Origin: Halobacterium jilantaiense
GTDB taxonomy: Archaea > Halobacteriota > Halobacteria > Halobacteriales > Halobacteriaceae
Direction of reading: 5' to 3'
DNA length: 64,000 bases
Assembly: GCF_900110535.1 (NCBI RefSeq)
Contig: NZ_FOJA01000001.1
Location: forward strand, 1,240,001-1,304,000
The notes below the pieces were generated by a model that saw only the letters and a list, made by a program, of their open reading frames with translations, did not search any database and was not told the origin of the DNA. The position numbers were made by a program, and so were the translations under genes. Positions 10,924 through 26,689 of this stretch are shown piece after piece; within the stretch, counting starts at the first letter, position 1, and each line of letters starts with the position of its first letter.

Positions 10924-11418
10924 TCAGGTCCGGAGGACGTACGCGAGCAGCGTCCCGCCGAGCAGTAGCGTCACGAGGGCAGTCACGGGGAGACTTCTCG
11001 GGCCGAACGTGTAGACGACGAGCGTGACGGCCGCGACGAGCGCCGAGAGCGCCGCCGTCGAGAACACGTGGACGAGGACGGACTGCCCGACGCGGGCGTC
11101 GCGGCCGACGTCGACGCCGAGGCTGACGGCGTGCTCGCCGGCGTCGTACGCGACGACAGTGCCGACCCCGCCCACGAGCGTGTACGCGGGGTCGAGGCCG
11201 GTGGCGGCACCGAACACGACGCCGACGGCGAGCGTGGCCGCGCCGAGCGAGACGAACCGCCGGGTGCCCTGCTGGGCACCGAACACGAGCAGCCCAGCGC
11301 CGGCAGCGCCGAGCGCGAGGCCGATGCCGGAGCCGAGCGCCGGCACGAGCGCGACGACGGCGGCGACGGCGGCGGGCGCGACGGCGACGGTCGGCGGCCG
11401 GGCGTCGAACTCCGTCAC
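10924..11418 (-). CDS. polytopic membrane protein, last gene of the DUF58 operon
   Basis: 164 residues from GTG 11418, whose GTGA overlaps the stop of the DUF58 gene. Almost entirely hydrophobic, with about six transmembrane segments (for example VAVAPAAVAAVVALVPAL and LPVTALVTLLLGGTLLAYVL) and one polar loop around VDVGRDARVGQS. I recall this family as haloarchaeal DUF7519, unverified. Translational coupling to DUF58 and the shared operon suggest a role in the MoxR-linked envelope complex. No enzyme motif is visible. Confidence 0.75.
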   Translation of the reverse strand: MTEFDARPPTVAVAPAAVAAVVALVPALGSGIGLALGAAGAGLLVFGAQQGTRRFVSLGAATLAVGVVFGAATGLDPAYTLVGGVGTVVAYDAGEHAVSLGVDVGRDARVGQSVLVHVFSTAALSALVAAVTLVVYTFGPRSLPVTALVTLLLGGTLLAYVLRT

Positions 11419-12677
11419 GCCGACCACCCCCGTTCGGCGTCGGCGACGGCGAGCGCCAGCGAGTCGCCGGCCCGCCAGTCGATGACGCGGACGCCAGCCG
11501 TCCGCAGCGACCGGATGCGGACCGCGCGCTCCACGCGCGAGAACTGCTGGCCGAGCGTGTCCGCGCCCGTGACATCCGGCGACACGACCGTCACGGGGTG
11601 GCCGCTGGCCTCCAGCCGGCGGACGTACTCGGCGGCGTCGTCGTCGACGAGCGGCGAGCAGAACACCACTTGGGCGTCGTCCGGGAGGTGTTTGCGGAGC
11701 CGCCGGAACACCAGCGCACCGAGGAATCTGCGGTCCGGGGTCGACACGGAGAAGCCGCGGTCGCGGGCGAGCAGTTCTTCGAGGCGGGCGCGGTGTTCGC
11801 GGCCGAGGCCGGGCGCGAGCCACGCCCAGTACGGGCCGAGCGAGGCGACACCGACCTGGTCGCCCGAGTCGAGAAGGGCGGACGCAACGCCGCCCGCGGC
11901 CTCCACGCCGTACTCGACGGCGTTCGTGCCGTCCTGGTCGGCGACGTGGGCCTGGGCGCGGGTGTCGACGACCGCGACGACGGTGGCGGCGCGCTCCTCC
12001 CGGAACTGGATGGTCGCGAGCTCGCCGTCCCGGGCGAGGCGCTTCCAGTCCACTCGACTGAGGGGGTCACCGGAGCGGTACTCGCGGGTGGCGTGGAACT
12101 CCACGCCGGAGCCGCCGGTCGACGTCGAGACGCGGCCGACGCGCTGGACGGTCTGTGCCCGCAGCGGGAACGACTCCAGGCGCGGGAGGTCTGGGACGCA
12201 CGCGAGCGCCGACTCGGTGGCGACGGACATCCGGGTCTCGTGGCCGCCCGACGCGTCGCGGGCGACCACGTCGACGCTACCGAACTCGTGTTCGCCACGA
12301 ATCACCTCGACTGTGTAGGTGACGGACGCGGACTTCCCGGCGCGGAGCGCGGTGGCGAGCCGCGGCGACCCCGAGACCACCGAGAGGGTCTCCGGGACGC
12401 CGTCGACGACGCGGAGGTCGGGCAGCAGCGACCCCTCGTTCGTGACCGTCAGGGTCACGTCGACCCGGTCGCCGGGCTCCGGGTCGTCGTCGGACAGCGA
12501 CCGCTCGACCGAGAGGCAGGGGTCGGGCGCGGTGAACAGCCGCGCGTAGCCCGCGACTGCGACTCCGAACACGCCGAGGACGAGCACGCCGGGCACGCGG
12601 GTGGCTGCGCCGACTGCGAGCGCGAACAGCGCCAGCGCGACCGCGCCGCGCCACCGAAGGGTCTCCTCGGAGCGCAT
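11415..12677 (-). CDS. DUF58 domain protein
   Basis: 420 residues. Two N-terminal transmembrane helices (residues about 9-45), then a beta-rich extracytoplasmic-type region with RSLSDDDPEPGDRVDVTLTV (an accessory Ig-like part), and the DUF58 core with EYRSGDPLSRVDWKRLARDG followed by a VWA-like start VVAVVDTRAQ. DUF58 proteins are regular partners of MoxR ATPases; the VWA-like fold is thought to be the adaptor. The gene starts 1 nt into the overlap with the DUF7269-like gene and is coupled downstream to the small membrane gene. Confidence 0.92.
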   Translation of the reverse strand: MRSEETLRWRGAVALALFALAVGAATRVPGVLVLGVFGVAVAGYARLFTAPDPCLSVERSLSDDDPEPGDRVDVTLTVTNEGSLLPDLRVVDGVPETLSVVSGSPRLATALRAGKSASVTYTVEVIRGEHEFGSVDVVARDASGGHETRMSVATESALACVPDLPRLESFPLRAQTVQRVGRVSTSTGGSGVEFHATREYRSGDPLSRVDWKRLARDGELATIQFREERAATVVAVVDTRAQAHVADQDGTNAVEYGVEAAGGVASALLDSGDQVGVASLGPYWAWLAPGLGREHRARLEELLARDRGFSVSTPDRRFLGALVFRRLRKHLPDDAQVVFCSPLVDDDAAEYVRRLEASGHPVTVVSPDVTGADTLGQQFSRVERAVRIRSLRTAGVRVIDWRAGDSLALAVADAERGWSA

Positions 12678-13255
12678 CAGCTCTCACCTCCCCGGAGGCC
12701 GACAATGTGTCGGAGTTCGCGGACGACGTGTTCGGCCTGCCGCTCGTAGACCGGGTCGGCGCTGAGGATGGCGTCGAAGACGTCCGTGGCCGGCGAGTCG
12801 ACGTCCTCCGCGAAGAACGCCGCGGCGGCCCGGTCGTCGGTCCACGTGCCCTCGTCGAGTTGGCGTTCGGCTTCCTCCGGCGCGAGCCCCCGAGCGTCCA
12901 CGAGCGCGCGCACGGTGACGCTGCGGAGTCGGTCGCTGAACTGCGCGTCGTCGAGGTTGGTTCGGAAGCTGCCCGAGCCCTCGCGGAGGCGAGCGTCGAT
13001 GTCCTCGCCGGGCCGCGGCGGCTCGAACCGGGGTTCGAGCGATTCGTTGCGGTCCTCGTCGTCGGTCTCGTCGCGGAACTCCGTGGAGCTGCGGGCGATG
13101 CCCGCGGAGAGCGCGAACGCGGCCGCGAGCGCGGCGATGACTATCGTCGGGAGCGGCGGGAACCGGAGGGTGCGCGCGAGCGACGGCTGGACCGCGACGG
13201 CGAACCCGAGGGCGGCCAGCACGACGCCGAGCGCGAGCAGGATGCGGCGCAGCAT
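12677..13255 (-). CDS. DUF7269-type membrane protein of the MoxR-DUF58 operon
   Basis: 192 residues. Two transmembrane helices at residues about 4-22 and 36-54 are followed by an acidic linker and a helical C-terminal domain (DRLRSVTVRALVDARGLAPEEAERQLDEGTW ... VYERQAEHVVRELRHIVG). I recall this as haloarchaeal DUF7269, unverified. The gene shares a base with both neighbours (13255 and 12677), so translation of DUF4129, this gene and DUF58 is tightly coupled. Function unknown; probably a membrane scaffold between the two. Confidence 0.75.
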   Translation of the reverse strand: MLRRILLALGVVLAALGFAVAVQPSLARTLRFPPLPTIVIAALAAAFALSAGIARSSTEFRDETDDEDRNESLEPRFEPPRPGEDIDARLREGSGSFRTNLDDAQFSDRLRSVTVRALVDARGLAPEEAERQLDEGTWTDDRAAAAFFAEDVDSPATDVFDAILSADPVYERQAEHVVRELRHIVGLRGGES

Positions 13256-14217
13256 CAGCGCTCACCACCCTCCGTGTACCGCTGTTCGATGGCTCGCAGC
13301 GCGTCGACGGCTCGTTCCTCGCGGTCAGGCGTCGCCTCGGCTCCGCCGTACCGGACCTCCCGGAAGACGTCGGTCAGCGCGTCGACGTGGGCGGCGTCCA
13401 TGCCGGCGTCGCAGGCGGCCGTCGCGAACTCCCGCGGCGTGCTCGTCTCCGGGTCGGGCAGGTCGATGTGGTCGGTCATGTCCCGCCACGCGCGGTACAC
13501 CTCGTTGTCCACGTCGGCGGCGTCCTCGATGCGGTCGGCCGCCTCGCCGGCGGCCGCGCCGACGGCGGCCAGCGCGTCCCGGTCCTCCGGGTCGCCGGTC
13601 TTCGCCTCGGGAAGCGGGTCGTCGTCGGGTTCGTCGTCGCCGCTCGCGCGGTACGCGAGCACGGCGAACAGGACGGCGACGACCACGAGCAGGCCGACGA
13701 GGACGGTCGGAGAGACCAGCTGGTCGACGGCCTTCCCGGCGGCGTTCCCGCCGAAGTCGCCGCCGCTGGAGTTGTTCTGAAGCTCGGGAAGGAGCGCGGC
13801 GTCGCGCTGATTCAGGGGGCTGCTGGTTCCGCAGTCCGTCAACAGCATGTACGGCACCGCGAGGAACAGGGTCACCGGGAACAGGACTGCGGCCGCGTAG
13901 ATGGCGTTCTCGCGGCGTTTCAGTATCCAGCCCGCGCCGGCGAGGGCTGCCACGCCACCGATCAGCACCCACGGTGACAGCAGTATGGGAACGCAGGCAG
14001 CGCTGAGCCGTATCGGGTCGCCGCCTTCGGGCTGTTCTGGGACAGGCTGGGCGTTGTCGTTGTCACCCTCCCGGTCGGCGTCTCCGGGCTGGAAGTCGCT
14101 GCCGACGCCCGGGCCAGCGCCGGACGGCGACTGGGGGTCGGCGAGCGTCGACGCCGCCAGAGCGACGGCGAGGACACAGAGGAGGGCGACTATCAGGACG
14201 CGTACGTTTCGGTCCAC
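13255..14217 (-). CDS. DUF4129 domain membrane protein, copy 1
   Basis: 320 residues. A secretory signal or TM (VRVLIVALLCVLAVALAAS) is followed by a charged linker, three TM segments (about 80-100, 110-128 and 163-185), then an acidic spacer and the C-terminal DUF4129 domain. The domain shows EVYRAWRDMTDHIDLPDP, TPREFATAACDAGM and LTDVFREVRYGGAEATPDRE. DUF4129 domains are fused to transglutaminase-like proteins in bacteria and occur with MoxR-DUF58 in archaea. A second copy lies immediately upstream (14269-15258). No catalytic residues are known for the family. Confidence 0.88.
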   Translation of the reverse strand: MDRNVRVLIVALLCVLAVALAASTLADPQSPSGAGPGVGSDFQPGDADREGDNDNAQPVPEQPEGGDPIRLSAACVPILLSPWVLIGGVAALAGAGWILKRRENAIYAAAVLFPVTLFLAVPYMLLTDCGTSSPLNQRDAALLPELQNNSSGGDFGGNAAGKAVDQLVSPTVLVGLLVVVAVLFAVLAYRASGDDEPDDDPLPEAKTGDPEDRDALAAVGAAAGEAADRIEDAADVDNEVYRAWRDMTDHIDLPDPETSTPREFATAACDAGMDAAHVDALTDVFREVRYGGAEATPDREERAVDALRAIEQRYTEGGER

Positions 14218-14268
14218 TGTCGCGCGGTTATCTACTCGAAAGCATAGGTCTTGCGAACAGTTCTCTCG

Positions 14269-15258
14269 CTAGCGGTTGTCCCACCCCAGGGCCGCGTCGC
14301 GGTCGGCAGCCGTCTGGAGGCTGCGGAGCGCGTCGACGGCTCGCTGTTCGCGGTCGGGCGTCGCCTCGGCGTCGCCGTACCGGACCTCCCGGAAGACGTC
14401 GGTCAGCGCGGCCACGTCCTCGGCCGGCATTCCGGCGTCGCGGGCCGCGGCCGCGAACTCGGCGGGGGTCGCCGCACCGGGGTCCGGAATCCCGGTCGCC
14501 GCAGCCATCGCTCGCCACGCGCGGTACACCTCGTTGTCCACGTCGGCCCCGGCTTCGATGCGGTCGGCCGCGTCGCCCGCCGCGGCGGCGACCGAGAGAC
14601 TCGCGTTCACGCCCGAGTCGGCCGCCTCGCCGGACTCGTCGCTCGCGTCGTCGCTGGACGGTGCCGGGTCGTCGCCCGTGGCGTGGTACGCGACGACGAC
14701 CAGACTCGCGACCACGGCGACGACGCCCAGCACCACTACGGGGTCGGTGAGGAGGGTCGTCGCGGCCTCGGCCGCTGCCTCACCGCCGCCCGACGAGCCG
14801 GTGTCGCCGGGCGCGAACACCAGTTCGTCGACGCCGCGGGACTCCGACGGCACGGACGACCGGCAGTCCGTGGCCGCGAGCCAGAACGGCACGGCGGAGA
14901 GGACGGCACCGCCCACAACCACGACGGTCGGCGTCGTGGCGACGCGTCGGCGGACAGCGACGGCCGCGGCCCCCGTCAGGACCGCAGCGACCGCGAAGAA
15001 CGCCGGCGACCGCAGGACCGGGACGCAGACACCGGACAGCGGTGGCGTCGTCTGCTCGGTCGCCGTCTCGACGTTCCGAGCGACGCCGCTGCTCGCGTTC
15101 TCCGACTGGTGAGCGCCCTCTCCCGCGACCGGGGATTCGTCGCCACTGCCAGTGCCCGAGCCCCGTGGCTCGGTCGGAGCCGGCAGCGTCGCCGCCGCCA
15201 GCGAGACGGCGACCACGCAGACCAGCGCCAGGACGACCGCGCTCCGGCGACGAGTCAC
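14269..15258 (-). CDS. DUF4129 domain membrane protein, copy 2
   Basis: 329 residues from GTG 15258 (MTRRRSAVVLALVCVVAV); a TTG at 15288 in the same frame would add 10 residues but gives an atypical start. Same layout as the downstream copy: signal/TM, Ser/Glu-rich linker, three TM segments and a C-terminal DUF4129 domain with EVYRAWRAMAAATGIPDP, TPAEFAAAARDAGM and LTDVFREVRYGDAEATPDRE. The final 60 residues of the two copies match almost word for word, while the linkers differ, so this is a tandem duplication. First gene of the leftward operon, divergent from pilB. Confidence 0.88.
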   Translation of the reverse strand: MTRRRSAVVLALVCVVAVSLAAATLPAPTEPRGSGTGSGDESPVAGEGAHQSENASSGVARNVETATEQTTPPLSGVCVPVLRSPAFFAVAAVLTGAAAVAVRRRVATTPTVVVVGGAVLSAVPFWLAATDCRSSVPSESRGVDELVFAPGDTGSSGGGEAAAEAATTLLTDPVVVLGVVAVVASLVVVAYHATGDDPAPSSDDASDESGEAADSGVNASLSVAAAAGDAADRIEAGADVDNEVYRAWRAMAAATGIPDPGAATPAEFAAAARDAGMPAEDVAALTDVFREVRYGDAEATPDREQRAVDALRSLQTAADRDAALGWDNR

Positions 15259-15365
15259 GCACAGAACGTAGCGGACGGGGGGAAACAAAAGTTACTGGTG
15301 GGTTAGACGACGGTTTGACCCATCAGCCAGTCGAACGGCTCGTTCCACTCTCCCCAAGTAATTAT

Positions 15366-15395: not shown

Positions 15396-15416
15396 GATAG
15401 GCGCGACTCATCTGTG

Positions 15417-17561
15417 ATGCTCCAGCAGGCCGACGCCGTCCCCGCGCCCGCGCCGCCGGACAGCCCGGACGCGTGGTACGCCCCGGACGTGCGCGCCCAG
15501 TACGAGGTCCACCCCGGCACCGTCGTCACCGTCTCGGAGACCGACGGCGGCTTCGCGTACGACGCCCGGCGGCCCGTCCTCGGCGCGAGCGACGAGACAG
15601 CACTCGACCGCGTCCGCGACTACTTCGCGGACGCACAGCTCTCCCGCCCCCGGACGCGGGAGGGCACCCGAGAGCGGGTGGCCGACGGTCTCGCCGAGAA
15701 ACACCGCCAGGTCGTCGCCCGACTCACCGACTGCTCGCGGGCGGCCCGCAGGCGCGTGGAGTTCCACGCGCTCTGCGAACTCCGCGGGCTCGGCGACCTC
15801 ACGCCGCTGGCCCTCGACGACGACGTGGAGGTCGCCGACGCTACCAGCGACTGCCTCGCCGTTCACACCAGCGAGTACGCGCCGGCCCGAACCGACCTCC
15901 CCGCGGACCCGCCGCACCTCGACCGCTTCCTCTCCGAGCGACTCGCGCGCTACACCGTGCCGTTCCGCGACTTCGAGATACCCGTGGTGGTCTACCGAGA
16001 GCGCGTACTCGGCCGGGACGCCTTCGACACCAAGTACGCCGTCCGCGAGCCCGACCGCCTCCCCGGCGACGACGAACTCGTCGCCGAGTGCAAGGACCGC
16101 ATCTGGGAGGCCAGCGTCTCGGACGTGCTCGGCGACGGCCGCGACCGCACCGAGTTCGTCGCCGAACGCGCCCGCACGCTCCTCTCCCGGCGGCTCACCG
16201 TCCGGAACACGCGGGCGTGGCTGGACGCCACCCGGCACAGAGTGCGGGCCGCGCTCGCCGAGTACGGCCTCGCCGTCCCGCCGGTCGGGTGGCGGTTCAG
16301 TGACGACCGGCTGGAGGACCTGACGTACTACGTCCTCCGGGACTTCGTCGGCGACGGCGAACTCACGGTCCCCATCCGCGACCCCCACCTCGAAGACGTG
16401 GAAGCGAACCGCCTCGGGGAGCGCGTGAAAGTCGTGCCGCGCGGGAGCCTGCGCGCGCACGGCGAACGGCTCCCCACCAACCTCGTGCTGGACGACGAGC
16501 AGCGATTCGTCAACCTCGTCACCCAGCTCGCCGCCCGGGACGGCGTCGAACTCAACGCCTCCAATCCGTCGGCGAAGGTCAACCTCGAACCCGCGGAGGT
16601 CACCGACGACGTGACCATCCGGTGTGCGGTCGCGCTCCCCGCAATCAGCGAGGACGGCCCGCACGTCTCCATCCGGAAGCAGGCCGCCGACGCGCTCACA
16701 CCCGTCGACCTCCTGGAGCGCGACAGCATCACTCCGGAGGTCGTCGCGCTGCTCTGGATGGTGTACGAACACCACGGCGTCGTCCTCTACTCGGGTCCCA
16801 CCGGCGTCGGGAAGACGACGCTGATGAACGCCCACATGCCGTTCGTCCCCTTCGACGACCGCCCCATCAGCATCGACGAGGGCAGCCGGGAGGTCCGGCT
16901 CCCACACGAGACCGGCGTCTCACTGACCACCCGCGACCACGAGCGCGAGTTCAAGCGCGTCTCGATGGCGGACCTGATGACCGAGACCAATTATCTCAAT
17001 CCCGACGTGGAGGTCATCGCCGAAATCAACACCCGGGAGAGCTTCGAGAGCTTCGCGCAGGTGCTGAACACCGGCCACGGCGTCGTCGGCACGACGCACG
17101 CCGAGGACGTGGAGACGCTCGTGAACCGGGCGGTCGAGCAGGGCGTCCCCGCCTACCTCCTCCGCGAGGTCGACCTCGTCGTCTTCCCCCGGCACGTCAA
17201 CGGCGACCGGTACGTCGGCGAGGTCGTGGAGTTCGTCAACGACCCCGACGACGCCACGGAGACCATCGAGAAGGACGGCGGCGCAGTCCACTACCGCCGG
17301 GTCGCCGAGCGCGAACCGGGCAGCGAGAGCGACTACTCGTTCCGGGGCGTCGCGGACGTGCGGTTCTTCGATGCGCTCGCGGCGCGCACCGACCGGCCCG
17401 TCGAGGACGTCCACGACGAGTTCGCGCAGAAACGCCGCTACGTCGAGTACCTCCACCGCGAGGGCGTCGACGACTTCGACGAGCTGTTCGGGCTGCTGTC
17501 GGACCTCCGCACCGACGAGGCAGCGACCGTCGAGCGACTCCAGCGGAGGGCCGGCGAGTGA
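15417..17561 (+). CDS. PilB/TadA-type type II/IV secretion ATPase of an archaeal pilus
   Basis: 714 residues from ATG 15417 (GTG 15414 is equally possible; the promoter spacing points to 15414). Walker A SGPTGVGKTTL lies near residue 460, an Asp box DRPISIDEGSREVRL follows, and a Walker B-like EVIAEINTRESFESFAQVLNTGH with the His box VGTTHAEDVETLVNR completes the secretion-ATPase core. The N-terminal 400 residues are the long haloarchaeal extension. Such ATPases power assembly of type IV pili and archaella from the cytoplasmic face. It overlaps the TadC-like gene by GTGA. No archaellum genes (flaI/arlI context, arlH) are nearby, so it is a pilus-type system. Confidence 0.92.
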   Translation: MLQQADAVPAPAPPDSPDAWYAPDVRAQYEVHPGTVVTVSETDGGFAYDARRPVLGASDETALDRVRDYFADAQLSRPRTREGTRERVADGLAEKHRQVVARLTDCSRAARRRVEFHALCELRGLGDLTPLALDDDVEVADATSDCLAVHTSEYAPARTDLPADPPHLDRFLSERLARYTVPFRDFEIPVVVYRERVLGRDAFDTKYAVREPDRLPGDDELVAECKDRIWEASVSDVLGDGRDRTEFVAERARTLLSRRLTVRNTRAWLDATRHRVRAALAEYGLAVPPVGWRFSDDRLEDLTYYVLRDFVGDGELTVPIRDPHLEDVEANRLGERVKVVPRGSLRAHGERLPTNLVLDDEQRFVNLVTQLAARDGVELNASNPSAKVNLEPAEVTDDVTIRCAVALPAISEDGPHVSIRKQAADALTPVDLLERDSITPEVVALLWMVYEHHGVVLYSGPTGVGKTTLMNAHMPFVPFDDRPISIDEGSREVRLPHETGVSLTTRDHEREFKRVSMADLMTETNYLNPDVEVIAEINTRESFESFAQVLNTGHGVVGTTHAEDVETLVNRAVEQGVPAYLLREVDLVVFPRHVNGDRYVGEVVEFVNDPDDATETIEKDGGAVHYRRVAEREPGSESDYSFRGVADVRFFDALAARTDRPVEDVHDEFAQKRRYVEYLHREGVDDFDELFGLLSDLRTDEAATVERLQRRAGE

Positions 17562-19405
17562 CCGGCGGCGACACGCTCGGCGTGGTCGACCGCGCACTGT
17601 ACGCGCTGTTCGCGCGGCAGGCGGACCGCGACCGCCACGACCCCGACCGCAAACGCTACCGCGCCACCCGCCTCGACCTCGGGTTCGACGTCTTCCTCGC
17701 CCGCGTCTACGGCGCGTCCTGGCTCGCGCTCGCGGCCGTCGCGGCGGCAGCGGCGGTCACCGGACTCGCGCTCGGGGTCGGCCCGCTCGCACCGATAGCG
17801 CAGGTCCTGCCGGCGAGCCAGCCGGCCGCCGTGTGGCTCGCCGTGGGCCTCCCGCTGGGGCTCGTCACCAAGCGGGCGACAGTGTGGGCGGGCGGCCGCT
17901 ACCTCGGCTGGCGGGCGAAAGCCCGCCGGGCGGACATCCAGGCCACACTGCCGGGTGCCGTCCGCTACCTTTCCGTGCTCGCGTCCGGCACGACGGACGA
18001 GCGGGCTCTCCTCGCGCGCATCGCCGACCGGCCGGCCGCCTACGGCGAGACCGCGGCGGCGTTCCGGGACGTGCTCAACACCGCCGAACTCACTGGCAGC
18101 GTCGACCGCGGGCTGCGAGTCGTCGCCCGCGACACGCCGAGCCGGGACGTGCTCGCGCCCTTCCTGCTGAAGCTCCGCGAGCACGCCGCCCAGGGCCCGG
18201 ACGCCGTCGCCCAGTACCTCGAACTCGAATCGCGGATGCTCGCGAACAGCCGCGAACGCAGCCGCGAGCGCGCCGCGGGTTTCCTCGAACTCGTCGCCGA
18301 ACTGTTCATCGTTCTCCTGGTGTTGCCCGCGCTGCTGGTCATCGTCGCCACCGTCATGAGCGTCCTCGCGCCCGGGCTCGGGGCACCGGTCGCCACGCCG
18401 CTCGGAACGACCACGGTGCGCGCGATGCTGGTCTACGGCAGCGCTGGCTTCGTGCTCGTCGTCGGCGTGCTCGCCGCCTGGCTCGTCGGCGATATGCGGC
18501 CCCGAGGGTTCGCCTGGCACGGCCACAGCCGCTCGACCGGCCTCGGCGTGCTCGCGAACGCAGCCAGAAACCCAGCGGACGCCGCCGTCGTCGCCGCCCT
18601 GCCTGCGCTCGCCGTGGGCGGCTGGCTCGCCGACACGGGCCTGAACGTGGTGAACGTCGCGCTGCTGTCGTACGTCGCGTTCGCCGTCCCGGTCGGCGCT
18701 GTCGCCGCACGCCGCGCGCGTATCGACGACGCGAAGGACCGCGAGATACAGGACTTCGTCCACGCCGTCTCCGGCCACGTCAGCCTCGGCCGGCCGTTCG
18801 GCGACGCCGTCTCCCGGGTCGCCGACGACGTCGACCTCGGCCCGCTGAACCCCGACGTCGACGACCTCGCGTTCAACCTCGCAGTCACCACCCACGACGA
18901 GGATGTCCGGGCGGCCGCCCTCGGCCAGTTCGTCGAGCGCGTCGACACCCAGCTCGCCGCCCAGACCGTTGGCCTCGTCTCCGGCGCGCTCGACGCCGGC
19001 AGCGACGCCGACGCCGCCTTCGAGGCGCTGCAGGCGGAGGTCGGCCGGCTCTACCACGAGAAGCGCGCGCTCCGCTCCCGGCTGCTCGTCTACGTCGCCG
19101 TCGGCTGGACGACCGCGCTGCTCGTCGTCGGCATCACGGTCGCCGTGAACCTCGCCGTCCTCGACAGCTTCGCGCAGCTCTCGGCGGTCTCGGACGCCGC
19201 GAACGCGGGCGGCCTCGCCATCGACCCCGGCGCTGTCGACCTGGAGCGCGACCGCTTCCGGTTCTACGTCGTCACGCAGGCGACGATGCTGGCCTGCGGC
19301 TGGTTCGCCGGTGCCGCGAACCGCGGGCGCTACGACGCCCTGCTGCACTCGGGGCTGCTCGTCGCGGTCGCCTACGCCGTCTTCGCCGGGGTGGGGATGC
19401 TGTGA
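17558..19405 (+). CDS. TadC/PilC-type pilus platform membrane protein with two T2SSF-like halves
   Basis: 615 residues from GTG 17558 in the GTGA overlap. Two similar halves are visible: residues about 135-275 (LPGAVRYLSVLASGTTDERAL ... AELFIVLLVLPALLVIVATV) and about 385-560 (IQDFVHAVSGHVSLGRPFGDAV ... LLVYVAVGWTTALLVVG). Each has a cytoplasmic helical T2SSF domain followed by paired TM helices; about nine TM segments in all. This is the platform on which the secretion ATPase acts. In bacteria one T2SSF repeat pair is typical; the long archaeal form fuses them. Its stop overlaps the next gene by GTGA. Confidence 0.88.
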   Translation: MTGGDTLGVVDRALYALFARQADRDRHDPDRKRYRATRLDLGFDVFLARVYGASWLALAAVAAAAAVTGLALGVGPLAPIAQVLPASQPAAVWLAVGLPLGLVTKRATVWAGGRYLGWRAKARRADIQATLPGAVRYLSVLASGTTDERALLARIADRPAAYGETAAAFRDVLNTAELTGSVDRGLRVVARDTPSRDVLAPFLLKLREHAAQGPDAVAQYLELESRMLANSRERSRERAAGFLELVAELFIVLLVLPALLVIVATVMSVLAPGLGAPVATPLGTTTVRAMLVYGSAGFVLVVGVLAAWLVGDMRPRGFAWHGHSRSTGLGVLANAARNPADAAVVAALPALAVGGWLADTGLNVVNVALLSYVAFAVPVGAVAARRARIDDAKDREIQDFVHAVSGHVSLGRPFGDAVSRVADDVDLGPLNPDVDDLAFNLAVTTHDEDVRAAALGQFVERVDTQLAAQTVGLVSGALDAGSDADAAFEALQAEVGRLYHEKRALRSRLLVYVAVGWTTALLVVGITVAVNLAVLDSFAQLSAVSDAANAGGLAIDPGAVDLERDRFRFYVVTQATMLACGWFAGAANRGRYDALLHSGLLVAVAYAVFAGVGML

Positions 19406-20118
19406 CGCGCGAGAACCGCGCGCAGTCGAACGTCGTCGGCGTCGCAATCCTGCTCGGCGTCACGGTTGTCGCGCTCGGCGCGCTCACGGCGAGCGTCGGC
19501 ACCGTCGTCGACCAGCACGCCGCCGCCAGCGACACCCGGCGGGTCGCCGGCGACCTCGACGACGCCCTCCGGCCGGTCGAGACGACGGGCGTCCACCGGG
19601 GCGGCGTGGCGTTCACGGACGGCGAACTCGCCCTCGTCGAACGGCAGGTCCGGGTGTTGAACACGAGCGGCGTGGCCGCCACTGTCGACGCGAACGCGCT
19701 GCGGTTCTCGGCAGGCAGCCGGGCGGCGACCTACCTCGCGGGCAGCGTGCTCGTCGCGGGTGACGGCTGGGCGCGCGCCCGGAGCCCGCTCGCGGTCGCC
19801 GCCGACCCGGACGTCCTCGTCGTGAGCGTGCCCGCACTCCGCGGGAACGTCTCACTGGCGGCCAGCGGCGGTGGCGGCGTCACCAGAACCGTCCGGTCGA
19901 ACGTCAGCCACCACCGCCGCAGCCTCGGGGACGCCGGCTACCGGGTCGCCGTCGAGACGGAGTACGTCGACGCCGTCGCCGACGAGTTCGAGGCGATGGG
20001 CGCGACGACCACGACCCGTGACTTCGACGGCGACGGGGTCCGGAGCGTCGTGGCTCACTTCGACGGCGTGCGCACCGGCTACCTCGTCGTCCACGAGACG
20101 GAGGTGACCGTCGAGTGA
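19402..20118 (+). CDS. single-TM pilin-like protein 1 of the operon (DUF7289-type)
   Basis: 238 residues from GTG 19402, GTGA-coupled. The N-terminus MTRENRAQSNVVGVAILLGV leads straight into a hydrophobic segment (VVGVAILLGVTVVALGALTASVG), the layout of archaeal prepilin-like proteins. The rest is a beta-rich domain with VRVLNTSGVAATVDANALRF and a C-terminal YRVAVETEYVDAVADEFEAMG. This is the largest of the five small proteins and resembles the haloarchaeal DUF7289 family (from memory). I infer a pilin or minor pilin anchored in the membrane with its globular part outside. Confidence 0.8.
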   Translation: MTRENRAQSNVVGVAILLGVTVVALGALTASVGTVVDQHAAASDTRRVAGDLDDALRPVETTGVHRGGVAFTDGELALVERQVRVLNTSGVAATVDANALRFSAGSRAATYLAGSVLVAGDGWARARSPLAVAADPDVLVVSVPALRGNVSLAASGGGGVTRTVRSNVSHHRRSLGDAGYRVAVETEYVDAVADEFEAMGATTTTRDFDGDGVRSVVAHFDGVRTGYLVVHETEVTVE

Positions 20119-20582
20119 CCGCCGGCCGCGCGGTCACGCCCGCCGTCGGGAAGGCCCTCGAAGCCGGCATCGTCGTGCTGTTCGTCGCCACTGCGACGAC
20201 GGCGCTGTACGGCGGCGTGGTGCCCGACGCCCGGAACGCCGCCGGGAGCGAAGTCGGCGAGCGCGCGCTCGAACACGCCGCCGCGGAGGTGGAAGCTGCC
20301 GTCCCGCCGTCGGGCCGGGAGGCCGCGGTCGAGCGCCGGGTGTCGCTGCCCGAGAGCATCAGGGACTACGGCTACGAGATTCGGGCGGCGAACGGGTCGC
20401 TCGTCCTCGCCCACGACCACCCGAGCGTCGGCGGGTCGACGCCGCTCGTGCTCCCCGACCGCGTCCGGACCGTCACGGGCGCGTGGGACGGCGGCGGTGG
20501 CGTCGTCCGCGTCGAACCGCACCCAGCGGGCGGCGTGGTCGTCGTGCTCGCGGACGAGCCGAGTGAGGTGAGCGACCGGTGA
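20115..20582 (+). CDS. single-TM pilin-like protein 2 (DUF7266-type)
   Basis: 155 residues from GTG 20115. The N-terminus is MTAGRAVTPAVGKALEAGIV followed by a hydrophobic stretch (VVLFVATATTALYGGVV), then an acidic Ala/Glu helix and a beta-rich C-terminus (YGYEIRAANGSLVLAHD, VVRVEPHPAGGVVVVLAD). The R-A-V-T-P-A-V-G text resembles the R-[GA]-V-S-P-V-I-G start of classical archaeal pilins, so of the five this one looks closest to a prepilin. It shares 4 nt with the genes on both sides. Confidence 0.75.
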   Translation: MTAGRAVTPAVGKALEAGIVVLFVATATTALYGGVVPDARNAAGSEVGERALEHAAAEVEAAVPPSGREAAVERRVSLPESIRDYGYEIRAANGSLVLAHDHPSVGGSTPLVLPDRVRTVTGAWDGGGGVVRVEPHPAGGVVVVLADEPSEVSDR

Positions 20583-21241
20583 CCGCGAGCCGGGGGCAGG
20601 CGAATCTGCCCGCGCTGGCGGTGGCGCTGCTGCTGGTCGGCGCGAGCGTCGGCGTCGCCGTGGCGCTCGCGGGCGGCGCGTTCGCGGCCGCGAACACGGA
20701 CGCGCAGGACACTCGCTTGGTGTCGTCGCTCGCCGAGCGCCTGGTCGCCGCAGACGGCCCGCTCTCGGTGCGCGCAAACGTCCTCTCGCGAGACGCGGTC
20801 GAGAACGCCTCGGGAGGGCTCTGCCCGGGAGCCGCGGACTGCCAGCTCCGGCTCGATGGGGAGACTGTCGCTGCGCGCGGCGACCCGAAGCGCGGCGAGA
20901 CCGTGCGCCGCATCGTGCTCGTCGCGGACACCGAGCGGCGGACGCTCGACGCCGCGCTCTCCGGGAAAGACGCGGTGACGCTCCCGCGGCGGACCGCGAA
21001 CGCGACGGTCCGGCTGGACCCGCCGACCGGGACGCGCGTGACGACCGTCCGGGCGAACGACCGCGTCGTGCTCCACGACCCCGGCGGCCTCGACGGCCGC
21101 TACGACCTCGCGCTCTCCCGGTACGACACCGTGACGCTGGCACTCGACGCGAACCGCGACCTCGGCCCCAGGGCGCTGACAGTCGGCTACCGCGTCGAGA
21201 CCACGAGCAAGGCCGTCCTAGAGGTGACCGTCGATGCGTGA
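20579..21241 (+). CDS. single-TM pilin-like protein 3 (DUF7263-type)
   Basis: 220 residues from GTG 20579. It begins MTASRGQANLPALAVALLLV and continues GASVGVAVALAGGAFAAA; the SRGQANLP text precedes the TM. The rest is a soluble domain with one close cysteine pair (LCPGAADCQL, about residues 81 and 87) that could form a disulfide outside the cell. Beta-rich C-terminal part (YDTVTLALDANRDLGPRAL). Family from memory DUF7263. Function inferred from context only: a structural or chaperone subunit of the pilus. Confidence 0.75.
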   Translation: MTASRGQANLPALAVALLLVGASVGVAVALAGGAFAAANTDAQDTRLVSSLAERLVAADGPLSVRANVLSRDAVENASGGLCPGAADCQLRLDGETVAARGDPKRGETVRRIVLVADTERRTLDAALSGKDAVTLPRRTANATVRLDPPTGTRVTTVRANDRVVLHDPGGLDGRYDLALSRYDTVTLALDANRDLGPRALTVGYRVETTSKAVLEVTVDA

Positions 21242-21653
21242 GCAGCCGCCGCGCGGCCAGGTGTCGCTGCCGGCTGTCGAGGCCGCCGTCGGCGTGCTGT
21301 TCGTGGTCGCGGTCGCGGCGGCGTTCGCGTTCGGGTCGCCAGCGGGCGGCGTCCCACGGGACGCCCAGCTGGACGCGTACGCCAGCGATGCCGCGACAGT
21401 GCTCGCGAACGAACCGCCCCAGCACGGCGACAGCACCCGACTCGCGGAGGTCGCGGCGTCAGAGGACGCGTTCGACCGGGAGGCCGACGCGCTGGAGCGC
21501 CGCGTCGACCGCATCCTCCCTGACAACCTCCTCTTCCGGGTGGCGACGCCCCACGGGACGGTCGGGTACGCGCGCCCGTCGACTGTGCCGACGGGCGTCG
21601 CGACGGTCCCCACGGGCGGTGGGACAGTGACGGTATGGGTGTGGTACGCGTGA
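21234..21653 (+). CDS. single-TM pilin-like protein 4 (DUF7262-type)
   Basis: 139 residues from ATG 21234, overlapping the previous gene by 8 nt. It begins MREQPPRGQVSLPAVEAAVG and continues into a hydrophobic run (VLFVVAVAAAFAFG). The PRGQVSLPAVE text includes a Glu inside the hydrophobic segment, reminiscent of Glu5 of type IV pilins. An acidic helix and a C-terminal strand-rich tail (VATVPTGGGTVTVWVWYA) follow. Family from memory DUF7262. Confidence 0.75.
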   Translation: MREQPPRGQVSLPAVEAAVGVLFVVAVAAAFAFGSPAGGVPRDAQLDAYASDAATVLANEPPQHGDSTRLAEVAASEDAFDREADALERRVDRILPDNLLFRVATPHGTVGYARPSTVPTGVATVPTGGGTVTVWVWYA

Positions 21654-22147
21654 CGCGGCGCGGCCAACTCGTGCTCGTCGCGGCGGCCGTCGCGGCGCTC
21701 GCGCTCGTTCCGGTCGCGGCGGCCTACCTCCAGTTCGGCTACGCGCCCGATGTCGCCGACCCTGACGCAGACCACGGCGAGCGCGTGGCGAGCGAACTCG
21801 ACCGGCTCGTGGACGACGCCGCGGAGCGCGCGACCGGGCGGCCCTGGAGCGAGCGCGAGGCGGCAGTACGAGAACTCCGCGCGGCGCTCGGGCCACCGGT
21901 CGACACACTGGAGCGGAGTCGGCTGGGCGACGCCGTCGCCGTGCACGTCACGGAGAACGAGTCCGCCGTAGCGGGTGTCGCGTGCCCCAGTGGTCGCGGA
22001 CGCGCGTTCGGTGACTGCGAGCGCGACGGCGGTGTGGTCCTCCAGGAACGCGCGAACGAGACTGTGGTCGTCGCAGTCGCGCTCGACGTGCGCGTGACGA
22101 CGCCGGACGGAACGACGACGTTCACGCGGGTACTTCAACCGAGGTGA
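21650..22147 (+). CDS. single-TM pilin-like protein 5 (DUF7261-type)
   Basis: 165 residues from GTG 21650 in a GTGA overlap; an in-frame ATG at 21635 is possible but less likely given the coupling pattern of the row. It begins MTRRGQLVLVAAAVAALALV; the RRGQ precedes a hydrophobic segment (residues 6-26). A predicted helical part (ERVASELDRLVDDAAERATG) and a beta-rich part follow, with a cysteine pair (VACPSGRGRAFGDCERDG). Family from memory DUF7261. Last gene of the tightly packed row; the operon ends here before a 279-nt gap. Confidence 0.75.
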   Translation: MTRRGQLVLVAAAVAALALVPVAAAYLQFGYAPDVADPDADHGERVASELDRLVDDAAERATGRPWSEREAAVRELRAALGPPVDTLERSRLGDAVAVHVTENESAVAGVACPSGRGRAFGDCERDGGVVLQERANETVVVAVALDVRVTTPDGTTTFTRVLQPR

Positions 22148-22426: not shown

Positions 22427-25354
22427 ATGGGCACGCGACCAGGCGAGCGACAGAGTGCATCGTCACGCACGAGCAGACTCCTCACACTACTCGTCGTTGG
22501 AGTACTCGTCGTCGCTCCGGCGAGTGTGGGGGTCGTCGGATCGACCGCGGGCGACGCCAGCGACGCTACGGGCGACGGTCCAGTGCAGCAGACGCCGCTC
22601 GTTCCCGAGACAGGCTCGCTCGGCGACGCGAGCACGACGTTCGCGGGGGCAGGTGCCAACGACACGTTCGGGACTGCGCTCGCGCACGGAGACCTCAACG
22701 GGGACGGCGTCGAGGACGTCGTCGTCGGCGCGCCCGAGAACAACACGGGTGAGGGGACCAACTCCGGCGCGGTCTACGTGTTCTACGGTCCCGTCGAGGA
22801 CGGCGACATCGACGCGGCGTCCGCCAGCGTCACGCTCCACGGCGTCGACGCCGGCGACCGCGCCGGCTACGCCGTGGCCGCGGGGGACGTGGACGACGAC
22901 GGGGCGGACGACCTCGTCGTCGGCGCGCCGCTCGAAGACGCCAACGGCCAGTCCGCGGGCACGGTGTACGTCGTCGACGGGGGCGACGACCTCCCCGAGA
23001 ACGGGTCGCTCTCGGACGCGGACCACGTGCTCCGCGGCGAGAGCGCGGGCGACCGCGCCGGCTGGTCCGTCGCCGCCGTGAACCGAACCGACGGCGACGA
23101 CGTGCTCGTCGGGGCACCCGGGAGTAACGCCTCCGCCGCCAACGCCGGCGCTGCGTACGTCGTCTCGGACGTCGACCCCGGCGTCGGTTCGCTCGCTGAC
23201 GCCAGCACGACACTCACCGGCGAAGGCAGCGGCGACGCCGCCGGCTGGTCCGTCGCCGAAGCCGGCGACGTCGACGGAGACGGCAGTCAGGATATTCTCG
23301 TGAGTGCGCCGTGGAACAACTCCACCGCCACCGACGCCGGTGCCGTCTACCTCCTCACGGAGACCGACGTGGGGACGGTCTCGCTGGCGGACGCCCGGCT
23401 GAAGCTCGCCGGCGACGCCGCTCGCGACCGCGCGGGCTGGGACGTCGCCGAGGCCGGCGACGTTGACGACGACGGCTACGACGACGTCCTCGTCGGCGCG
23501 CCGACCGCCGAGACGGCGGACAGCGAGTCGAACGCCGGCATCGCATACGTGGTCTACGGTGGCGAGGGCGACACCGGCACGGTGAACCTCTCCGACGCCG
23601 GGACGACGCTCGCCGGCGAGGGCGAGGACGACTTCGCCGGCTACTCGGTCTCCTCGGCCGGGTCCGGCGACGTGACCTGCGACGACTATGCCGACGTGCT
23701 CGTGGGCGCACCCGGCAACAACTCGACGGCCGTCGAGGCCGGAGCCGTCTACGTCGTCGCCGGCAGCGAGTCCCCCGCGACCGAGCGCAACCTCTCGACG
23801 GCCGACGCGACGCTCGCCGGTGAGGGCGAAGGCGACCGCGCCGGCACCGCCGTCTCCGACGCGATGGACGTGACTGGTGGCGGCGACAAGGACGTCCTCG
23901 TCGGCGCACCGTTCAACAACTCCAGCGCCGTCGACGCCGGTGCCGCCTACCTCGTCGCCGGCGACTGCCCCGAGCCGGAACCGGAGCCAGAGCCGGAGCC
24001 CGAACCGGAGGACGTCGTCGTCACCACGGAGTGCGCCGACGAGCAGGGGACGGTCACGGTCAGCAACCCCAACGGCGAGCGCGTCACGTTCACCATCGAG
24101 GGCGACAGCTACACCCTCGCCGCCGACGGTTCGGACGACGATTCGGTTACGCTCTCCGACCTCGACGACGGCGACTACCAGTGGAGCGCGGAAACCGAGG
24201 ACGGCACGGACGTCGGCGGTGGCACGCTCACCGTCGATTGCGACGAACCCGACGACGTGCTGGTGACACTGGAGTGCGTCGACGAACAGGGCGAGCTGAC
24301 AGTCACCAATCCGAACGACCAGAACGCCACCTTCAGCATCGAGGGCGACAACTACACGCTGACTGCCAACGGCACCGCCAACGACTCCCTCGTGGTCTCC
24401 GACCTCGACGACGGTGACTACCAGTGGAGTGCCGAGGCCGAGGACGGCACCGACATCGGCGACGGCACGCTCACTGTCGACTGCGACGAGCCGAGAGGCA
24501 CGCAGGACACCGTGGCCGTCACCGAAGAGTGCGAGCAGCTGACCGTCAGAAATCCGAGTGACAACGACGGGAACGTCGACTTCCGCGTCCGGAACGGGTC
24601 CGGCGACCTGGTCACCACCGTCCGAGACGTCGCGCCCGGAGAGGGCGACACCATCGACGGACTCACCGGTGACGACTACACCGTCGACGCTCGCTACGTG
24701 ACCAGCGACTCGTTCGCCTCCGACAACGTCACCGTCAGCGGCCAGACCGAGGCGACGGTCGCAGTCGCCAGCTGTCGACAGCCGACCGACACCACGGCGG
24801 TCTCCGAAGAGTGCGAGCAAATCACCGTGACTACCCCCGGTGACAGCGCGGAGCCCGTCGACTTCCGCGTCCGGAACGCGTCCGGTGACCCGGTCGCCAC
24901 CGCTCAGGACGTCGACCCAGGTGACAGCGCCACCGTGAACGTGACGGCAGGCGGCTACACCGTCGACGCCCGCTACGCGACCGACGACTCGTTCGCCTCC
25001 GACAACGTCACCGTCAACGGCCAGACCGAGGCAGCCGTCAGCGTCGAACAGTGTCCTGTCGAGCCGCCCACGACTACGACTGAGCAGTCAACCACCACCG
25101 AGACTCCGACCACCACCACCGAGACCCCGACTACAACTGAGGAACCAACCACCACCGAGGAACCGACCACGACTGAACAGCCAACGACCGCAGAGACTCC
25201 GACCACCACCGAAACCCCAACTAACACTACAACTGAAACCTCGACCACCACCGAAACCCCGACCAGCACCACGCCTTCGACCAGCACTGCGACGGGAGCC
25301 GCGCTCGTCGGGCTCGTGGGCTCTCTCGGTCTGTTCGTCCGCACCCGCGAGTAA
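22427..25354 (+). CDS. large FG-GAP repeat (integrin-alpha-like) cell-surface protein
   Basis: 975 residues from ATG 22427. Signal peptide at about 20-45 (LLTLLVVGVLVVAPASVGVV), then seven FG-GAP/beta-propeller repeats (about 60-510) with Ca-binding loops such as DLNGDGVEDVVVGAP, DVDDDGADDLVVGAP and DVDDDGYDDVLVGAP. A Glu-Pro spacer (EPEPEPEP) follows, then two repeats of one beta domain (each with a Cys near the start and a VDCDEP end), then two repeats of a second (EECEQ start, QTEA ... C end). A Thr/Pro/Glu stalk and a C-terminal TM (GAALVGLVGSLGLFV) end the protein. Probably an extracellular adhesin. No PGF tripartite C-terminal signal is visible. Confidence 0.85.
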   Translation: MGTRPGERQSASSRTSRLLTLLVVGVLVVAPASVGVVGSTAGDASDATGDGPVQQTPLVPETGSLGDASTTFAGAGANDTFGTALAHGDLNGDGVEDVVVGAPENNTGEGTNSGAVYVFYGPVEDGDIDAASASVTLHGVDAGDRAGYAVAAGDVDDDGADDLVVGAPLEDANGQSAGTVYVVDGGDDLPENGSLSDADHVLRGESAGDRAGWSVAAVNRTDGDDVLVGAPGSNASAANAGAAYVVSDVDPGVGSLADASTTLTGEGSGDAAGWSVAEAGDVDGDGSQDILVSAPWNNSTATDAGAVYLLTETDVGTVSLADARLKLAGDAARDRAGWDVAEAGDVDDDGYDDVLVGAPTAETADSESNAGIAYVVYGGEGDTGTVNLSDAGTTLAGEGEDDFAGYSVSSAGSGDVTCDDYADVLVGAPGNNSTAVEAGAVYVVAGSESPATERNLSTADATLAGEGEGDRAGTAVSDAMDVTGGGDKDVLVGAPFNNSSAVDAGAAYLVAGDCPEPEPEPEPEPEPEDVVVTTECADEQGTVTVSNPNGERVTFTIEGDSYTLAADGSDDDSVTLSDLDDGDYQWSAETEDGTDVGGGTLTVDCDEPDDVLVTLECVDEQGELTVTNPNDQNATFSIEGDNYTLTANGTANDSLVVSDLDDGDYQWSAEAEDGTDIGDGTLTVDCDEPRGTQDTVAVTEECEQLTVRNPSDNDGNVDFRVRNGSGDLVTTVRDVAPGEGDTIDGLTGDDYTVDARYVTSDSFASDNVTVSGQTEATVAVASCRQPTDTTAVSEECEQITVTTPGDSAEPVDFRVRNASGDPVATAQDVDPGDSATVNVTAGGYTVDARYATDDSFASDNVTVNGQTEAAVSVEQCPVEPPTTTTEQSTTTETPTTTTETPTTTEEPTTTEEPTTTEQPTTAETPTTTETPTNTTTETSTTTETPTSTTPSTSTATGAALVGLVGSLGLFVRTRE

Positions 25355-25397: not shown

Positions 25398-25919
25398 TCA
25401 GTCCTCTGCGAACTCCTCGAAGCCCCACTCGCTGGCCCGCTCGGTCGCCTCCTCGCGGGCGCGCTCCCGGAGCGCGTCGATCTTCTCGTCGTCCTCGAGG
25501 AACGCTTCGACGGCGTCCATCGACTCCCCACCCTGACTGCCGTCGGCCGGGGCCGCGGCGCGGGTGCGGTCGGCGAGGTCGGCGTCGCCAGCGAGGCGCT
25601 CGGCCGGCGTTCCCGGCGCGACGGCGAACTGCTCGGTCTCGGGGACGGGCGGGTCGCCGCCAGCGTAACACTCCACGCGCAGCGGCCCGGGCACCGCGAG
25701 GTCGCCGAGCGCCGCGTCACCGCCGCGCCCGGAGCCGGAGTGCTTGACGTGCGTCGGGACGCCCGCCTCGAACGCCAGCACGCCCGCGCCGCCGTCGTCC
25801 AGCAGGAGCGCGTCCTGGGGCGTGAACTCGGCGTACCCCGTGAGTTCGCGGTCGAGCGCGAGCCCCAGCGCGGCTGCTGCGTCCTCGACGACCCGGGAGA
25901 ACGACACGGGCGTCGTCAT
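25398..25919 (-). CDS. acidic protein of unknown function, last gene of the MinD-like operon
   Basis: 173 residues from ATG 25919, overlapping the MinD-like stop by 4 nt. Soluble and Ala/Asp/Glu-rich. The N-terminal 90 residues look like a small mixed alpha/beta domain (VLAFEAGVPTHVKH, GPLRVECYAG); residues about 115-173 form a charged helix (FLEDDEKIDALRERAREEATERASEW). No family recognised. The gene is translationally coupled to a ParA/MinD-type ATPase, so it could be the effector or receptor of that ATPase; this is inference from position only. Confidence 0.65.
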   Translation of the reverse strand: MTTPVSFSRVVEDAAAALGLALDRELTGYAEFTPQDALLLDDGGAGVLAFEAGVPTHVKHSGSGRGGDAALGDLAVPGPLRVECYAGGDPPVPETEQFAVAPGTPAERLAGDADLADRTRAAAPADGSQGGESMDAVEAFLEDDEKIDALRERAREEATERASEWGFEEFAED

Positions 25920-26689
25920 GGCTGGTCGGGGACCACTGCGCTCCGGAACCGGTCGGCGACCGCGTCCGCGTCGCTCGCCTGCACGTCGAGCGCGTCGACG
26001 GCCGTCCGATAAGCTGCCGCGGCGTCGCTGTCCGGAGCATGTGCAAGCAGCGGTTCGCCCGCGCGCCGCGCCGCCCGCGCCGCGTCGTCCTCGGGAACGG
26101 CTGCGAGCGTCGGCCCCTCGAAGTAGCGGTCGGCTTTCGCCGCGACGCGGTCGACGGCGTCGCCGTCGGTCACGCGATTGAACAGCACGCCCGCGACGCC
26201 CGTGCCGTAGGAGGCCGCGTACTCCTGAACCTTGAGGGCGTCCGAGATGGCGGGAATCGTCGGTTCGACCACGAGCACCGTTCGGTCCGCGAGCACGACG
26301 GGGAGGACGGCGTCCCGGCTGGCGAGCGTCGCTGGCGAGTCCAGCAGGAGAACGTCCGTGTCGCTGGCGAGTTCGGCGACCACGTCCCGGAGCCGCTCCG
26401 GTTCGGCCGCGCGGAAATCAGAGAGGCTCGTCCCGCAGGGCACCACGCGCATCCCGTGTCGCTCGTAGACCGCGTCCGAGACGGCGGCGTCGGCGTCCGC
26501 CAGCAGGAGGTCGTGCAGCGTCACGTCCACGTCCGCCAGCCCAGCGTGGAACAGCAGGTTCGCCATCCCCGTGTCGGCGTCCACGACGGTCACGTCGTAG
26601 TCGTCGGCGAGCGCGAGACCGAGCGCGAGCGTGCTCGTCGTCTTCCCGGTGCCGCCCTTCCCCGACGCGACCGCGAACGCCTCAACCAT
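25916..26689 (-). CDS. MinD/ParA-type ATPase
   Basis: 257 residues. Deviant Walker A GKGGTGKTT at about residues 10-18 (with both the signature Lys and the P-loop Lys), switch I DADTGMANLLFH, and switch II LLLLDSPATLAS. No amphipathic C-terminal membrane-targeting helix is obvious; the tail is DADAVADRFRSAVVPDQP. Family members position division sites, plasmids, chemoreceptors and pili. In haloarchaea several MinD paralogs exist, and MinD4 is known to act on archaella and chemosensory arrays. The gene sits between two unknown genes that overlap it (8 nt upstream, 4 nt downstream). Confidence 0.88.
   Translation of the reverse strand: MVEAFAVASGKGGTGKTTSTLALGLALADDYDVTVVDADTGMANLLFHAGLADVDVTLHDLLLADADAAVSDAVYERHGMRVVPCGTSLSDFRAAEPERLRDVVAELASDTDVLLLDSPATLASRDAVLPVVLADRTVLVVEPTIPAISDALKVQEYAASYGTGVAGVLFNRVTDGDAVDRVAAKADRYFEGPTLAAVPEDDAARAARRAGEPLLAHAPDSDAAAAYRTAVDALDVQASDADAVADRFRSAVVPDQP

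Follow-up and report, generated by a model that had tools for sequence, protein, structure and literature searches.

The closest described counterpart of the genes considered here is the PilB4-type system of Halobacteria, which an earlier census outlined as a pilin set of its own together with an assembly ATPase extended by additional domains at both termini, with arCOG03926 as predicted major pilin and the roles of the other pilins called unclear (Makarova 2016, PMC4858521). Two relatively large FlaFind-positive pilins are described together with PilB4-PilC4 (Pohlschroder and Esquivel 2015, PMC4371748), the PilB4 protein was detected in one growth medium (GMM) only (PMC7305310), and in Haloferax gibbonsii infected with HFTV1 the expression of pilB4-pilC4 drops (PMC12542753). 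In the Halobacterium salinarum pil-2 and Haloferax volcanii PilB1 systems a single operon likewise contains PilB, PilC and a number of prepilins (PMC4292770, PMC6491452), and in Methanococcus maripaludis, where piliation needs several minor pilins, the class III signals of the Epd pilins have Gly or Ala at -1 followed by Gln at +1 (PMC3875500, PMC4371748). Here we consider 64,000 nucleotides (nt) of Halobacterium jilantaiense DNA (the window, to which plain coordinates refer), in which genes for a PilB-type ATPase and a PilC/TadC-type protein are followed by a row of five overlapping genes, and we conclude from sequence comparison that these five very probably code for type IV pilin-like proteins that serve, with a PilB and a PilC of their own, as subunits of a single haloarchaeal pilus machine. 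The genes concerned are given below, a stroke in the site notation (e.g. RA/QS) marking the inferred cut position.

15414-17561, plus strand: PilB-type assembly ATPase, 715 amino acids (aa); Pfam T2SSE, E 1.8e-20, residues 398-585
17558-19405, plus strand: PilC/TadC-type membrane platform protein, 615 aa; Pfam T2SSF in two stretches, E 1.6e-13
19402-20118, plus strand: prepilin-like subunit 1, DUF7289, site RA/QS, RAQ conserved; PF23960, E 1.3e-48
20115-20582, plus strand: prepilin-like subunit 2, DUF7266, site RA/VT, Lys +7, Glu +10; PF23928, E 4.3e-50
20579-21241, plus strand: prepilin-like subunit 3, DUF7263, site RG/QA; PF23924, E 8e-75
21234-21653, plus strand: prepilin-like subunit 4, DUF7262, site RG/QV, Glu +8; PF23923, E 2.7e-58
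21650-22147, plus strand: prepilin-like subunit 5, DUF7261, site RG/QL, conserved Cys pair; PF23922, E 1.9e-57

By its description and by family matches the window system can most likely be identified with the PilB4 type described in the 2016 census. Like the Haloferax volcanii HVO_1160 locus (PMC4858521) it combines an extended ATPase, a cognate TadC and pilins in the locus; indeed extra N- and C-terminal parts flank the T2SSE domain of the ATPase, which matches the model of the archaellum ATPase FlaI at E 3e-40, under that model's cut-off, and Haloferax volcanii also matches the DUF7261 and DUF7262 profiles, at the level of family matches alone. To the account of 2016 the present analysis adds the conserved sites and the charges at the helix starts. 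A literature search with the five DUF names and the arCOG numbers, most subscription journals lying outside it, found only Makarova 2016.

The genes of the row overlap by 4, 4, 8 and 4 nt from the first to the fifth, the last value becoming 19 nt if the alternative ATG at 21635 is taken for the DUF7261 gene, and overlaps of 4 nt also join PilB to PilC and the PilC stop to the DUF7289 start. Since it lies directly behind the overlapping PilB and PilC genes, the row can be taken to supply the pilins in an operon for an archaeal type IV pilus, and row, PilB and PilC probably form a single translationally coupled unit. On the Kyte-Doolittle scale a single hydrophobic region appears in each of the five window proteins, inside residues 4-41; elsewhere no stretch of 19 residues scores above 1.6. 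The initial annotation had likewise described five genes overlapping by 4-8 nt, one N-terminal hydrophobic segment in each protein and an R-[AG]-Q motif in four of the five, and frame coordinates, hydropathy and sites (RAQS, RGQA, RGQV and RGQL, with RAVT as the exception) bear this out; what it overlooked were the motor genes upstream and the prior census.

Searching genomes with the ATPase gave a set of 71 haloarchaeal loci, in 48 of which all five row genes stand behind PilC, ordered strictly by stop codon in 47; the exception is in our reading L032, whose DUF7266 frame is overlong. Among the 23 loci lacking the complete row, no row gene was found in 20, and the remaining three, L018, L038 and L083, are truncated at the edge of the locus, their genomes containing DUF7262. 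With the nearest upstream start codon taken throughout, the overlap of PilC with DUF7289 is 4 nt in 42/49 loci and that of DUF7262 with DUF7261 is 4 nt in 38/45, and 4 or 8 nt are found at most junctions in most loci. No tandem duplicate of a row gene occurs in the 71 loci, DUF7289 being present in two pieces in L072. As the set and its gene order are preserved among related species, the five are probably parts of one surface filament. Two irregularities may be added: in L041 (13610-14423) DUF7262 and DUF7261 lie in a single open frame, which is either a fusion or a sequence error, and in L018, L021, L038, L075 and L083 the PilC stop follows that of PilB at a distance of 3.2 to 7.8 kb, where ~2 kb is usual, so that PilB stands apart from PilC, which nonetheless remains with the row genes in all of these but L075.

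The archaeal class III signal has a charged residue at -2 and Gly, Ala or Ser at -1, and the processing sites of Methanococcus Epd pilins read RAQI, KGQV, KGQL and KGQI (PMC4371748). Four families of the row have Arg at -2, Ala/Gly at -1 and Gln at +1, and DUF7266 has R-[AG]-[VLM]-[ST]-P in the same place. Following the motif across orthologues, which is new here, we counted alignment columns over all sequences, taking in further loci beyond the 71, leaving out the paralogues L009, L010 and L012 as well as L041 for DUF7261, and dropping before alignment the matches that start beyond profile position 12. In these columns DUF7289 has Arg at -2, Ala/Gly at -1 and Gln at +1 in 49/50 each, the sole member without the site (L081) appearing damaged; the corresponding counts are 79/79, 79/79 and 78/79 for DUF7263 and 74/75, 75/75 and 75/75 for DUF7261, DUF7262 has Arg in 77 and Lys in 2 with Ala/Gly and Gln in 79/79 each, and DUF7266 has Arg in 49/49 ungapped rows and Ala/Gly in 50/50. 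For DUF7266 and DUF7262 the site counts are those of the columns, an automatic motif picker having mis-assigned them owing to the charges in the helix.

The same picture emerges from a non-redundant set of 41-43 sequences per family, 211 in total, obtained with an 80% filter, removal of the loci above L086 and removal by hand of six short, damaged or fused rows (L018 for DUF7263, L041 for DUF7262, L032 for DUF7266, and L072, L081 and L083 for DUF7289). At -2 there are 210 Arg and a single Lys, the charged residue of a class III signal, -1 is Ala/Gly in 211/211, and +1 is Gln in 167/168 over the four families; none of the 43 DUF7266 sequences has Gln there, their residues being Val (24), Leu (10), Met (4), Thr (2), Ala (1), Phe (1) and Ser (1). 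The residues ahead of the Arg are not conserved, and the nearest start codon lies 1 to 42 residues from it. A variable stretch before a near-invariant site is explained by a processing site and not by a start-codon artefact, and as expected it is the pattern that a prepilin-peptidase site would leave. As a background, crude gene calling in the 71 loci gave 461 other gene-like frames, 111 of them with an N-terminal hydrophobic segment, and a [KR][GA]Q beside that segment was found in 2 of the 111, both resembling pilins, versus 190/241 row genes; a FlaFind-like pattern was used in the motif and background counts. Conservation of the motif in orthologues, whose absence would have spoken against the proposal of the initial annotation, is clearly observed, and a conserved class III signal is present in all five families.

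How closely the row follows its motor was surveyed in 59 genomes of the class, with DUF7262 as marker of the row (E <= 1e-10) and the ATPase at E <= 1e-100, the two genome lists being cross-tabulated by eye. Both were found in 21 genomes, DUF7262 only in 1 (G014), the ATPase only in 13 and neither in 24, a co-occurrence with a Fisher p of 5e-6 when kinship is ignored; 8 of the 13 ATPase-only genomes come from one genus (g9). In a separate search of 16 genomes, chosen through 18 loci, DUF7262 was above the cut-off in four and under it in the ten behind L057, L059-L062, L064, L065, L067, L071 and L076, all of them loci with PilB-PilC and no row, nine being titled Halorubrum and L067 Halobellus. 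The motor can therefore persist without the row, and these ten genomes, in which the motor is kept and DUF7262 is absent at the cut-off, are a new observation and constitute a natural test of the purpose of the row.

For the reading as pilin-like subunits we rely on the overlap with PilB and PilC, on the class III signal in five families, on matches to the Pilin_N profile and on the presence of one Peptidase_A24 gene in the genome. Pilin_N is matched at E <= 0.1 by 36/41 DUF7289 members (best 6.8e-6) and by 11/43 DUF7266 members (best 8e-4), and the archaellin/pilin N-terminal model at the same threshold by 24/41 DUF7289 members. The DUF7266 profile has three matches at E <= 1 in the PDB, all of them archaeal pilins, which at E 0.02-0.33 are weak and suggestive only, and DUF7289 has one weak match to PilA2 among chance-like ones. 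Taken together, the conserved signal, the PilB and PilC genes of the operon, the profile matches and the peptidase lend good support to the earlier proposal of pilin-like substrates of one machine. It could be argued that the five are ordinary membrane proteins with an uncleaved N-terminal anchor, in which R-[AG]-Q marks for instance a contact at the membrane boundary, and the window proteins of DUF7261, DUF7262 and DUF7263, which match neither Pilin_N nor any other pilin profile, would agree with this. Such anchors would however hardly account for Ala/Gly at -1 in 211/211 sequences of five families whose outer parts are mostly unrelated-looking, nor for a genome that holds PilB, PilC and a prepilin peptidase gene, and we regard this explanation as very improbable.

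There are nonetheless observations that weigh against the row being pilins. No window protein is above cut-off with the curated pilin N-terminal profiles, the DUF7289 protein falling just short with 19.9 bits against a cut-off of 20 for the archaellin/type IV pilin N-terminal model. No pilin of solved structure could be connected by sequence to DUF7261, DUF7262 or DUF7263, a search of solved structures giving nothing for DUF7263 or DUF7262 and chance-like matches for DUF7261. AlphaFold2 models of DUF7263 (predicted local distance difference test, pLDDT, 91) and DUF7261 (pLDDT 88) have a long N-terminal helix (residues 9-38 and 3-29, respectively), the hydrophobic H-domain lying directly behind the site, and a compact outer domain, which in DUF7263 is a beta domain; neither has a Foldseek match at E <= 0.001, their VIA-align Z is <8, and no archaeal pilin was seen among the matches listed in the fold searches. 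The DUF7263 outer domain does align to carbohydrate-binding and tumour necrosis factor (TNF)-like beta sandwiches, with Z up to 7.4, which the tool rates as common background. Furthermore, 13/34 ATPase-bearing genomes of the class are without DUF7262 at E <= 1e-10, and at positions that are hydrophobic in the genome's other pilins, as far as these were read, DUF7266 and DUF7262 are charged.

A single ancestral outer domain for the five families was considered and is not supported by profile-profile comparison, in which 6/10 pairs were run: DUF7289 and DUF7266 resemble each other with a probability of 76, and in the other pairs compared any similarity is weak or limited to the N-terminus. Two Cys are almost invariant in the DUF7261 alignment, a pair that would suit an outer domain. 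A separate DUF7261-like gene (L130, C1:655965-656285, minus strand) has RGQ before a hydrophobic helix in a frame of ~300 aa, and weak DUF7261 matches in most genomes of the class may be relatives of it.

The charges at the helix starts deserve consideration in their own right. In the all-sequence columns Glu at +8 of DUF7262 is present in 79/79, and DUF7266 has Lys at +7 in 52/52 ungapped rows and Glu at +10 in 44/54; the +5 residue is mostly Val in DUF7289 and DUF7266, Pro in DUF7263, Ser/Pro in DUF7262 and Val/Ala in DUF7261. Such charges are absent from the helices of the stand-alone pilins read in the genome. The genome has another pil operon (L119, C1:570000-588000, minus strand), by inference of the pil-2 type, in which PilC is followed by DUF7287, DUF7288, a DUF7266 relative and DUF7289 relatives; it thus shares DUF7289 and DUF7266 with the row, and has DUF7287 and DUF7288 in place of DUF7263, DUF7262 and DUF7261. 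R-[AG]-Q is found in 30/30 loci for both DUF7287, which has Asp at +5 in 30/30 and matches the DUF7262 profile weakly (E 4.8e-4), and DUF7288, which has Glu at +6 in 30/30, whereas the DUF7266 relative is present in 28/30 loci and its site, read in 27 of them, is accompanied at +7 by Tyr (22) or His (5), never by Lys. These invariant helix-start charges, which judging from the alignments differ between the row and its paralogous operon, are likewise new here, and make it possible to test directly by what means archaeal minor pilins recognize their partners.

In bacteria, most pseudopilin subunits of type II secretion systems (T2SS) and type IV pili (T4P) share a Glu that is invariant at mature position +5; none of the five row families has such a residue. 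As an archaeal counterpart of this Glu5 rule, buried charges might encode pilin neighbours, such that Lys +7 of DUF7266, with its Glu +10, would pair with Glu +8 of DUF7262 in a fixed hetero-oligomer and the paralogous operon would use another code (Asp +5, Glu +6, Tyr/His +7), an idea that we hold to be unlikely as it stands. Within either operon type there is hardly any variation at the key positions, which leaves no room for a covariation test. In M. maripaludis a conserved Gln +1 and Glu +5 are possibly needed for processing by EppA (PMC3875500), and a comparable processing need would be a simpler explanation, which would account for the acids, but not for the Lys. It should also be mentioned that the Epd pilins have their acid at +5 and a second peptidase, EppA, whereas the acid is at +8 in the row and at +5 or +6 in the paralogous operon, and Arc_PepC has no match in the genome.

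As to function, the row proteins would be inserted N-in/C-out through Sec, the PibD prepilin peptidase would cut after the Ala/Gly and before Gln (before Val, Leu or Met in DUF7266), and PilB and PilC would then pack the helices into a filament that displays five different outer domains. Since there is one copy of each gene and the coupling is tight, the row suggests a low-copy heteromeric tip or priming complex. In bacteria the minor pseudopilin tip complexes of T2SS and T4P consist of several small pilin-like subunits encoded in a row and serving one machine. The initial annotation had called the row the whole subunit set of a minor-pilin complex, and this is plausible because the five occur together in 48/71 loci, but nothing in the present data places the major pilin outside the row. 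A minor complex is one of two live options, and the shaft may be made either from DUF7289 or DUF7266, the PilA-like members, or from a stand-alone PilA. That the row is a complete pilus, with DUF7289 or DUF7266 as major pilin and the other four as minor ones, is possible, if somewhat against our expectation: a PilA-related major pilin of its own (arCOG03926) is predicted for the PilB4-type system (Makarova 2016, PMC4858521), and the resemblance of DUF7289 to DUF7266 and their partial Pilin_N matches point the same way, but major pilin genes are in the same account duplication-prone and often stand-alone, whereas here all five are joined by overlaps of 4-8 nt in most loci and are not tandemly duplicated in any of the 71, and none of the arCOG numbers could be assigned to a row gene.

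Instead of a long adhesive pilus, the five might build a short pseudopilus that serves secretion or senses surfaces. Against this, no secreted partner is conserved with the row, an exported FG-GAP protein behind the row having a relative in just 1/71 loci. The five diverse outer domains, the lack of an obvious shaft protein and the invariant acid near the mature start of DUF7262, which is loosely like the pseudopilin Glu5, do speak for such a structure, which we consider quite improbable. If the five are pilus subunits, a concrete and testable role can be given to five Pfam families whose function is unknown, and the conserved site together with the tight operon defines which subunits a haloarchaeal pilus system would have.

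Around the operon, the gene at 22427-25354 (plus strand), directly 3' of the row, encodes the exported protein mentioned above, which is large, contains FG-GAP repeats and has a hydrophobic tail at its C-terminus; as its relative is confined to L016, a role as component of the system is not supported. A gene for a MinD/ParA-like ATPase follows at 25919-26689 (minus strand), and a similar frame adjoins the row in L124. Proteins of this kind have been linked to such pilus systems (Makarova 2016, PMC4858521), but since relatives are found in 6/71 loci we do not claim the gene as a linked regulator. On the other side of the operon, a divergent cluster at 11418-15288 (minus strand) encodes a DUF58 protein and has two similar neighbouring genes, one of which was scanned as DUF4129; its relatives are found in 7-10 of the 71 loci, where the two similar genes match the same frames.

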